Below, piece by piece: positions 46,782 to 50,473 of a stretch of 64,000 nt of DNA. The translations under genes and the position numbers were made by a program. Under the pieces are notes generated by a model. It ran no database searches and was not told where the DNA came from. It saw only the letters and a program-made list of their open reading frames with translations. The DNA is from Ardenticatenales bacterium (GTDB lineage: Bacteria > Chloroflexota > Anaerolineae > Epilineales > Epilineaceae): NCBI GenBank assembly GCA_020853525.1, contig JADYYS010000011.1, forward strand, positions 1 to 64,000. The letters run 5' to 3'. The stretch's first letter is position 1, and the number at the start of each line of letters is the position of its first letter.

Positions 46782-46856
46782 ACGGGACGCGCCGTAGTCG
46801 CGCACGTACATAAGGTGAGGACGAATCTCCTCTCATCGACCGCGCGGAGGAAAGCA

Positions 46857-48089
46857 TTGGTTGGCACCGAGACGACTCCGACAGAGCTCATCGACCTACT
46901 CGGTGACGTCGACCCCGATGTTCGCCTCCGCGCCGCCCTCGACCTCGGCGAGGGGCGCCACCAGGCGGCCGCCCCCGCGATCGTGGAGCGATTCGGCCGC
47001 GAGCGCGACTTCTACATCCGCGAGATCCTCACCTGGACCGCGCTGCGCATGCCGGATGCCGCCCTCCCGCACGTCCGCGCCGCCCTCCATAGCCCGCGCT
47101 GGCTCGCCCGCCTCCAGGCCCTCCATACCTTGAGTAAGGTGGGCTCCCGCGACGATGCCGCCCACCTGGACCCGCTGATCGCCGACCCGGTGGACGCCGT
47201 GGCCGCGCGAGCGTACTGGGCTGCGGCGCAGACACTCGATCCACGCGTGGTGCCCGCACTCGTCGCGCAGCTCTCCCGAGGCGACTCCGAGCACCAGAAC
47301 AGCCTCACGGTAGCGCTCGGCTCGTTCGGCGCGGCGGCCGTCCCGGCCCTGGTGGCGGCACTAGGCGGCGGCAATCCTGAGGCGCGACGGCACGCCGCCG
47401 ACACCCTCGGCTCTATGGGCTCCCCGGATGCCGACGCCGCCGCCCAAGCCCTCGCCGCCGCCATCGCCGACCCGGACGAGGGAGTCCGCCTCGCCGCCCT
47501 CAACGCATTGGGCCAGCTGGTCGTGCCGTCCGCGTGGGCGGCGATCGATGATGCCGCCGGATCTCCGGAGCCCAAGATGCGCCAGCTCGCCGAACGTTTG
47601 GGCGAGCGGAGGCCGAGTACGCGTGAGCTGCGCTTGGCTGAGCTCCGGCGTCAGCGCGGTGGTGGTGACGGCGAAGCTGCTGACGAGGCCGAGGCCTCTG
47701 CGGAGGTGCAGCCGGTCGCGGCGGCGGCCCCATGGCCGGGTCCCGACCTGTCGCTGGTCGACATAGAGGGCGGCCCGCAGGCCGAGGCTCTTCATCCGAA
47801 ACTTGCCCGGCAGGTGGAATTCTGCCGCCCGCGCTACCTCAGCCGCTCCGACGTTCCCCAGGAAGTCCTCGCCCGGGTCTACGCGGAAGCCGAGGCTGAG
47901 GCGCTGACGGCGGGAAGGCCGGCGGCCGCGGCGGCCCGTATCGCGGCGGGCAGAGCCGAGTTGTTTGTCCACGAGACGGTCCTCCTTGAGCAGGTGAGCG
48001 TGGTGAACCCCGGGATGACGGTGGACGGGCTGCTGCTGGGCACGGGCGTCCGGGTTAAGGGATTCACGGTAAGCGCCGACGGGTCATGA
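46857..48089 (+). CDS. HEAT-repeat protein with an EF-Ts-like C-terminal domain
   Basis: About 410 residues. Residues 10-230 are HEAT/PBS-lyase-type helical repeats (PDVRLRAALDLGEG, PHVRAALHSPRWLARLQALHTLSKVG, VPALVAALGGGNPEARRHAADTLGSMG). After a charged linker, the last 90 residues match the C-terminal domain of elongation factor Ts: RYLSRSDVPQEVL, AGRPAAAAARIAAGRAELF, ETVLLEQ, a final beta strand VRVKGFTV. I start at TTG 46857 because GGAGG lies 6 bases before it; a GTG at 46815 has no site. Role unknown; a ribosome- or EF-Tu-related function is possible. Confidence 0.75.
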   Translation: MVGTETTPTELIDLLGDVDPDVRLRAALDLGEGRHQAAAPAIVERFGRERDFYIREILTWTALRMPDAALPHVRAALHSPRWLARLQALHTLSKVGSRDDAAHLDPLIADPVDAVAARAYWAAAQTLDPRVVPALVAQLSRGDSEHQNSLTVALGSFGAAAVPALVAALGGGNPEARRHAADTLGSMGSPDADAAAQALAAAIADPDEGVRLAALNALGQLVVPSAWAAIDDAAGSPEPKMRQLAERLGERRPSTRELRLAELRRQRGGGDGEAADEAEASAEVQPVAAAAPWPGPDLSLVDIEGGPQAEALHPKLARQVEFCRPRYLSRSDVPQEVLARVYAEAEAEALTAGRPAAAAARIAAGRAELFVHETVLLEQVSVVNPGMTVDGLLLGTGVRVKGFTVSADGS

Positions 48090-48277: not shown

Positions 48278-50473
48278 ATGTCGCTGCGAAGGATCCTCGG
48301 CCGCCCGACCCACCCCGCCCCCGTGCGAGCCGTCGCCTCGGTGATGCTGCTCGTCGCGGCCGGTCTTGCGATGAACGTCGTTCGACTTCGGCCCGCATCG
48401 CCGCCGACTGCGGCGCCTCTATCGTCCGCCATCGCCCAGTCCGATCCGTCGCCCCCACCCCCCGCCGTTTACCTCCCGCGTCTCGACGCCGCCCCGCCCC
48501 CCGACCTCGCCGTCGAAGGCCAGGTCGGCGGCGCCACGTGGGCCGTCGCCGCGCGGGGCGACACTGCCTACGTCGGCATCGGCCCGCGGATCGTCGCCTG
48601 GGACCTCCGCCCGACGGACCGCGGTGACGCACCCACCGAGCTGGCGAAGAGCGCCGTCCTCGGCCGGGCGGTGCGCGACCTCGTGCTCGACGGCGACCGG
48701 CTGTACGCCGCGCTCGGGGGCGCCGGCGTAGCGGTCTTCGACGTCGCCAACCCGGCGCGCATCGCCCTCACGACCGAGCGCGACCTGCCGGGCGAGTCGG
48801 GATCGCTCGTCCTCGACGCCGGGCGGCTGTACGTCGCGCTCGGCCGGCGTGGCATCGTGGTCCTCGACGCCGCGTCGCCCGCCCTCGACGAGCTGGGCGC
48901 CTGGCAGGCGCCGCCGGACGGGGACGATCCGGCGAAGGTCTTCGACATCGCCCCGCACGGGCAGCTGGCGTACGCAGCCGTCGATGAGCACGGGCTGCTC
49001 GTTCTCGATGTCGCCGACCCGGCGCGCATGACGATCGTCGGCGAGGACGCGGCGCACGGGGAGGCGCGGCGGGTGACGCGGGTGGGGGAGACGGCGTGGG
49101 TGGCGGCGGACAACGGGGAGGTGCATGTCTACGATCTGCGGGAGCCGCGGCGGCCGCGGTCGTTTGCCCAGCCGAATGAGCGATTCGTTCGCGGCGACGA
49201 GGCGGTGGCCGGATTCGCGCTGGCAGGCGACCGGATCGCGATCTCGGGTGGACCGCTCGAGGTCTGGGACGTGGCGGACCCGTTCACTCCCAGGAGGTTG
49301 GGGACCGGCACCGACGGCTTGTTCGCGCGGCACGCGGATGACGGGGGCGATGGCGTGGCGTTCGCTGGGGCCAGGCTCGTGGTCGCCGGCGGTACGAACG
49401 GCAAGATCGTCGTCGTCACTGCGGCCGGCGGAGCGTCGCTCCGGGGAAACGTCACGGTGGACGGTCTGTCCAATGCGTGGCGGTCCGTACTCTACGGCGG
49501 ACCCGATGGCAAGACGCTGTACAGTGGAGATGACCGCTTCGATGTCGCCCGTCCGAGCGAACCGCGACCGCTGGGCGTCAACCCGATGCAGTCGTACACG
49601 GTCGACGGTTCGCCGGCCGCAGGGCTGGATGCGGTCGTTGTCGACGGTCCCGTGGCGTACAGTGTCGGTGACCGCAACGCCGGCCAGCTCATCGCATTTG
49701 ACCTCACGGATTCCGCCGCGCCGCGCCGCGTCGGCGTGATCGACGACCGGGCGGCGGACCAGAATTGGGGCAGCGGCTTCGTCTTTCGCGGCTGGACCGC
49801 GGGCGTCCTCGCCAAGGCTGGGGACCGGATCGTCCTCGGCGGCTACTGCTGCCACTTCGCCGTCGTCGACGCCGCCGATCCGGCGGCGATGCGCCTGCTC
49901 GCGGTCCGCGGCGTCCAGCTCCGCGACGCGATCCACGCGCCGTCGCCCGCCCCGGCGGCCAGCTACACGGCCCTCGCCCTGACCGACGACGGACGCACAG
50001 CGGTCGGTGTGGACGCCGGCCAGCATGGCGACTTCGGCTACGCGGATTGGGGCGGCATCCAGGCGATCGACCTCACCGACCCGTCCGACCCGCGCTTCGG
50101 GCCGCACCTCGATTCCCCTGGCATGCAACAGAACGATGTCGTCATCCACGGCCACCACGCCTACGTCGCCGCCGGCAAGGGCGGCCTGCGCGTCTACAAC
50201 ATCGCCGACATCGACGCCGTCCGCGAGGTCGGCGCGTGGGACGACGGGGACGAGAAGGCCGTGGCGATCGTGATGGCGTGGCCGCACGTGTTGCTGGCGC
50301 GGAGCAAGCGGCTGGACCTCATCGACATCTGCGATCCGGGGCATCCGACTCGGCTGACCTCGGCGAGCGTGCCGGGCGTCGTGAAGGCGCTGCGGCTGTA
50401 CCGGGGGCGGGCGTGGGTGTTGACGGAGGACGCGGGGTTGGTGGGGTACGGGTTCCGCGGCGTCGGGCAGTAG
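48278..50473 (+). CDS. Secreted LVIVD-type beta-propeller protein
   Basis: 731 residues. A hydrophobic N-terminus (AVASVMLLVAAGLAMNVV), a Ser/Pro linker with VYLPRLDAAPPP, then LVIVD-like blades: GVAVFDVANPARIALTTERDL, GIVVLDAASPALDELGAW, GLLVLDVADPARMTIVGEDA, 'DLTDPSDPRFG', GLRVYNIADIDAVREVGAW. Overall it parallels the protein at 5591-7834. Surface location inferred, function unknown. ACGGAG lies 8 bases before the ATG. Confidence 0.85.
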   Translation: MSLRRILGRPTHPAPVRAVASVMLLVAAGLAMNVVRLRPASPPTAAPLSSAIAQSDPSPPPPAVYLPRLDAAPPPDLAVEGQVGGATWAVAARGDTAYVGIGPRIVAWDLRPTDRGDAPTELAKSAVLGRAVRDLVLDGDRLYAALGGAGVAVFDVANPARIALTTERDLPGESGSLVLDAGRLYVALGRRGIVVLDAASPALDELGAWQAPPDGDDPAKVFDIAPHGQLAYAAVDEHGLLVLDVADPARMTIVGEDAAHGEARRVTRVGETAWVAADNGEVHVYDLREPRRPRSFAQPNERFVRGDEAVAGFALAGDRIAISGGPLEVWDVADPFTPRRLGTGTDGLFARHADDGGDGVAFAGARLVVAGGTNGKIVVVTAAGGASLRGNVTVDGLSNAWRSVLYGGPDGKTLYSGDDRFDVARPSEPRPLGVNPMQSYTVDGSPAAGLDAVVVDGPVAYSVGDRNAGQLIAFDLTDSAAPRRVGVIDDRAADQNWGSGFVFRGWTAGVLAKAGDRIVLGGYCCHFAVVDAADPAAMRLLAVRGVQLRDAIHAPSPAPAASYTALALTDDGRTAVGVDAGQHGDFGYADWGGIQAIDLTDPSDPRFGPHLDSPGMQQNDVVIHGHHAYVAAGKGGLRVYNIADIDAVREVGAWDDGDEKAVAIVMAWPHVLLARSKRLDLIDICDPGHPTRLTSASVPGVVKALRLYRGRAWVLTEDAGLVGYGFRGVGQ

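Follow-up and report, generated by a model that had tools for sequence, protein, structure and literature searches.

EF-Ts is generally encountered as a free-standing translation factor. The locus described here raises the question of what a part of EF-Ts is doing at the end of a HEAT-repeat protein. The gene occupies positions 46857 to 48089 (+ strand) of the window (i.e., the whole 64,000-nucleotide stretch analyzed, from an Ardenticatenales bacterium of the phylum Chloroflexota). Its frame, as read, encodes 410 aa from a TTG start to a stop codon at 48087 to 48089, and a probable ribosome-binding site read from the sequence (GGAGGAAAG; 46846 to 46854, + strand) directly precedes the start. 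With domains assigned by Pfam, the product consists of a HEAT solenoid (residues ~10 to 255; 46884 to 47621, + strand), a linker that is variable in length and sequence and has high dN (residues ~256 to 292; 47622 to 47732, + strand), and an EF-Ts C-terminal module (residues ~293 to 405; 47733 to 48071, + strand). The HEAT_2 family of Pfam matches the first ~250 residues with 88.9 bits, the structure model is an alpha-solenoid, and tandem two-helix repeats forming a solenoid are indicated by both Pfam and solenoid matches in the PDB. The HEAT-domain tree described below agrees with this assignment.

The C-terminal part was compared with EF-Ts at several levels. The Pfam EF_TS profile (PF00889) scored 52.6 bits (cut-off, 27; E = 6e-14), aligning residues 300 to 405 with profile positions 95 to 199 of 204, and when all six frames of the complete genome were searched with this profile, only two places matched, namely, tsf on contig C59 (116 bits) and the fusion gene (54 bits). 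All seven PDB sequence matches of residues 301 to 410 below an E value of 0.001 are EF-Ts chains, the best being Mycobacterium tuberculosis EF-Ts (7vmx_A, residues 167 to 263; E = 7e-12), and a profile-profile alignment of the fused family against EF-Ts by hhalign gave 98.3% (E = 1.4e-14; columns 295 to 408). The top structure matches of an AlphaFold model of residues 289 to 410 (pLDDT, 88) are EF-Ts throughout (i.e., best match 1tfe, the dimerization domain of Thermus thermophilus EF-Ts, with Z = 14.9 and 1.9 Å over 117 residues; 7vmx_A, with Z = 10.3 and 37% identity over 107 structurally aligned residues); because the alignment behind this model included EF-Ts rows, the structural agreement depends on the sequence match and serves as a check of consistency. 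A long helical hairpin (residues 335 to 374; 47859 to 47978, + strand) stands out as the most confidently predicted region of the module (pLDDT block means, 96 to 98). It is already present in a whole-protein AlphaFold model built from a three-row alignment, where the rest of the C-terminus has pLDDT values of <50. Chance similarity to EF-Ts was considered and is ruled out by several comparisons (i.e., Pfam, PDB sequence search, hhalign, and structure). The same lines of evidence confirm, at the level of sequence and predicted structure, the fusion of HEAT repeats to an EF-Ts C-terminal domain that the initial annotation had proposed. That annotation had placed the EF-Ts part in the last 90 residues; the part is there, but it is longer, covering ~113 residues from residue ~293.

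Of subdomain C, the module keeps the second and third strands and, between them, the helical (coiled-coil/dimerization) insert. In its model, just two strands reach a length of at least 3 residues: the first (residues 300 to 304; 47754 to 47768, + strand) corresponds to strand 2 of EF-Ts subdomain C, and the other closes the module (residues 399 to 404; 48051 to 48068, + strand). No equivalent of strand 1 appears in the model; a WPxPD motif that is kept in the family stands in its place. Subdomain N, with its TDFV motif, is also absent; thus, the loss of the UBA-like domain, correctly noted at the outset, is part of a larger one. In M. tuberculosis EF-Ts, the strands of subdomain C span residues 144 to 149, 157 to 166, and 259 to 267, the named EF-Tu-contact residues are R13, K24, D77, N82, H149, R151, and D154, and mutation of H149 breaks the complex with EF-Tu (PMC9529903). 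All seven contacts precede residue 157 and lie outside the retained segment (the match covers residues 167 to 263). With the UBA-like domain, subdomain N, and the named contacts lost, nucleotide exchange on EF-Tu by the fusion protein appears, judging from the sequence, very unlikely. A normal tsf gene with a UBA-like start and an ETDFVAR motif is present on contig C59 of the same genome, as the initial annotation had anticipated.

We found four full-length fused orthologues (G566, G405, G470, and G714), all in one actinobacterial class, where they occur in 4 of 66 genomes; three came from 396 genomes of the phylum of UBA1416 and the fourth from an order search. They are 53 to 62% identical to the window protein end to end (16 to 32% in the linker), each carries HEAT_2 and EF_TS above the curated cut-offs, and each of their genomes also has a normal tsf, beyond which only tsf fragments were seen in the class. 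Frameshift or misassembly of neighboring genes, considered as a source of the fusion, is ruled out by these four proteins, and the two parts were not seen as separate genes in close orthologues, all of which are fused. The actinobacterium UBA1416 carries a shortened copy (L033:2318-2965) that is 78% identical at the N-terminus and keeps the last strand; it lacks approximately residues 83 to 174 and 271 to 378 (window numbering) and its frame changes, which may reflect either real decay or an assembly error. The same fusion had been expected in other Chloroflexota: it does occur in other genomes, which are actinobacterial, but none was found in the other genomes searched from the order and the class to which the window belongs or in the phylum sample. 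Frames of 492 to 519 aa around tsf elsewhere in the phylum, initially taken as fusions, proved to be regular tsf genes preceded by an open frame, in GC-rich DNA.

Between G470 and G714, dN and dS are 0.079 and 0.715 in the HEAT part, 0.077 and 0.835 in the EF-Ts module, and 0.29 and 0.54 in the relaxed linker. The HEAT and EF-Ts domains are both under purifying selection, about equally (dN/dS, ~0.1). The five fused modules group together as a single clade (support, 100/100) in a tree of EF-Ts C subdomains; this clade lies on a long branch (1.4 changes per column) beside actinomycete-type EF-Ts and is split (96/97) from the EF-Ts of Chloroflexota and of the modules' own hosts. The tsf of the window genome groups with that of its phylum-mates. 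In the same tree, the normal EF-Ts of the fusion-bearing class (L083 to L086) groups with Chloroflexota, away from actinomycete EF-Ts. Since the EF-Ts half derives from actinomycete-type EF-Ts, the window copy was probably acquired laterally. The simplest history, supported by the trees, would be a single fusion event in actinobacteria followed by lateral transfer to the window's lineage. The G+C content of the fusion gene is the same as that of its surroundings (0.721 versus 0.725), which implies that the transfer was old or that the donor was equally GC-rich.

The HEAT half has relatives of its own. Its conserved core (RDFxIRExLTWxxLRM...ARLQAxHTxSK) corresponds to an LTW...LHTLSK core common to MerR-linked HEAT proteins of Actinomycetota and to the MerR-TipAS-HEAT proteins of Deinococcus. 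In a 39-row tree of HEAT domains, the fused proteins form a single clade (100/99) nested within this MerR-linked group (97/95), apart from generic HEAT proteins. By sequence, the HEAT half shares descent with HEAT proteins that are encoded with, or fused to, MerR regulators. A MerR gene adjoins the HEAT gene in 12 of 13 actinobacterial loci of HEAT-only relatives and likewise in three plasmid loci, and these MerR neighbors often bear HEAT repeats themselves. In Deinococcus, MerR, the TipAS drug-recognition domain, and the HEAT domain lie in a single protein. At L055, the HEAT gene and a MerR-TipAS gene are divergently oriented. The MerR-linked HEAT proteins differ from the fusion in having a MerR neighbor or domain and no EF-Ts module.

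The pairing of a HEAT protein gene with a MerR-HEAT regulator gene is widespread in actinobacteria (L059 to L071 and L050 to L055). From its sequence, it looks like a two-part regulator, of which we found no published description. The L055 record (MT835720.1; H23) is labeled Bacteriophage sp., although its gene content looks bacterial by eye (i.e., DNA ligase, a dihydrodipicolinate-synthase-like gene, a two-component system, and MerR-TipAS). The fusion protein itself was not found in viral contigs. A link to defense systems was considered and set aside, PADLOC having returned generic HEAT/ARM matches only.

The genes adjacent to the window's fusion gene belong to the glyoxalase family (upstream) and to an LVIVD-repeat family (downstream), and no regulator gene is among them. 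The downstream gene (48278 to 50473) encodes a beta-propeller-like protein with an N-terminal hydrophobic segment and gives no sign of belonging with the fusion. Among the fused genes, only the G566 orthologue has a MerR-type gene adjacent or fused to it, an HTH_17/MerR-like gene that ends 2 bases upstream; no same-strand regulator was seen beside the other three. The G470 and G714 orthologues sit before a GDT1-type transporter gene (named by eye), and no conserved candidate partner gene was found next to the window gene and its orthologues.

The explanation that we tentatively prefer is that the protein acts as a regulatory adaptor and not as an exchange factor, its EF-Ts module serving to dimerize it or to dock a partner. 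The HEAT solenoid would hold a protein partner, probably a regulator. The C-terminal domain, on the basis of sequence and model, is an actinomycete EF-Ts C subdomain with its helical insert, freed from the parts that catalyze exchange. The module would most likely either pair with a second copy, giving a HEAT dimer suited to a dimeric regulator, or use its helical hairpin to dock a partner. Where EF-Ts has two subdomains, the C subdomain is packed against subdomain N, whereas the short EF-Ts of T. thermophilus pairs core to core. A C subdomain alone leaves this packing face open, which makes self-pairing the first choice; by analogy with T. thermophilus EF-Ts, dimerization through the module would be the most likely arrangement. 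The initial annotation had suggested either translation sensing or regulation, or a dimerization module, and the latter fits the anatomy better. T. thermophilus EF-Ts is a dimer; however, the closest relative of the module, M. tuberculosis EF-Ts, was reported to bind EF-Tu 1:1 (PMC9529903), which speaks against the adaptor, as does the lack of a regulator gene beside the window gene and three of its four orthologues.

Other readings account for parts of these data. It is unlikely, in our view, that the module docks on EF-Tu (domain III side) without exchange, so that the HEAT protein would sense or sequester EF-Tu and connect a regulator with the state of translation. The strong purifying selection on the module is in line with this, and EF-Tu is the main cellular partner of EF-Ts, the module's parent protein. 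Moreover, a contact of EF-Tu domain III with part of EF-Ts has been reported for E. coli (PMC9529903). Nevertheless, every residue named for a hydrogen bond or salt bridge, including H149, falls outside the retained segment, and the long branch of the fused modules is as expected once the EF-Tu constraint was lost; EF-Tu binding through other contacts is possible but disfavored. We regard as doubtful the elaboration that the module docks on EF-Tu or EF-Ts while the HEAT part relays the signal to a MerR-type transcription factor; we found no published account of a direct link of such a kind between elongation-factor state and transcription. Binding of the EF-Ts hairpin to an unrelated protein, with the HEAT part as scaffold, also seems improbable. 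It would suit the confident prediction of the hairpin, and the binding of the EF-Ts coiled coil to the thumb of the Qbeta replicase beta-subunit (PMC4200798) is a precedent; that precedent, however, is a virus exploiting E. coli EF-Ts, and no partner candidate is conserved beside the gene.

A degenerate or chance read-through fusion without function would explain the narrow spread of the gene within one class and the UBA1416 copy lacking two internal stretches, but four intact orthologues in which both domains are constrained around an unconstrained linker make it highly improbable. That the protein is a second EF-Ts with exchange activity is scarcely credible: its score does exceed the Pfam EF_TS cut-off, but it lacks the UBA-like domain, TDFV, and subdomain N, and a complete tsf is present in the genome. 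It also scores far below the cut-off of the NCBIfam tsf equivalog (TIGR00116; 32.3 versus 104.05 bits), as expected because EF-Ts is only partial in the fusion protein.

Compared with known systems, the module resembles the EF-Ts of M. tuberculosis and other actinomycetes in having the C subdomain with its helical insert and the LLEQ-SV...V..LL.....V..F pattern, and in lacking an insertion ahead of the last strand. The fusion protein differs from M. tuberculosis EF-Ts (7vmx) in the parts lost (i.e., the UBA-like domain, subdomain N with TDFV, strand 1, and the named EF-Tu contacts) and in the HEAT repeats that stand in front. T. thermophilus EF-Ts, whose dimerization domain is the closest structural match, has the TDFV strand pair that the module lacks. 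Another partial EF-Ts in a new context is gp247 of phage Colossus, a truncated EF-Ts that keeps the opposite half (i.e., subdomain N with the conserved Phe81, without the C-proximal dimerization part; PMC3556154). Furthermore, 38 IMG/VR contigs (L097 to L134; up to 447 kb) encode EF-Ts homologues, many of them ~190 aa long and bearing TDFV, which suggests from the sequences that EF-Ts is a recurrent phage gene.

The literature on HEAT repeats with EF-Ts or MerR, searched mostly outside subscription journals, contained nothing about the fusion protein, in agreement with the initial annotation, which knew of no described protein of this build. Both domains are known; what is new is that they are combined and that the C subdomain of EF-Ts is reused on its own. 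The fusion is a clean natural case for the role of this subdomain without EF-Tu, and, as a conserved fusion, it would show that the subdomain lends itself to reuse in pairing or docking. If EF-Tu binding were true, the protein would connect translation and gene regulation in a new manner. The conservation of the fusion in several actinobacteria suggests that an old part of the translation machinery now serves a regulatory protein as a module for binding or pairing.
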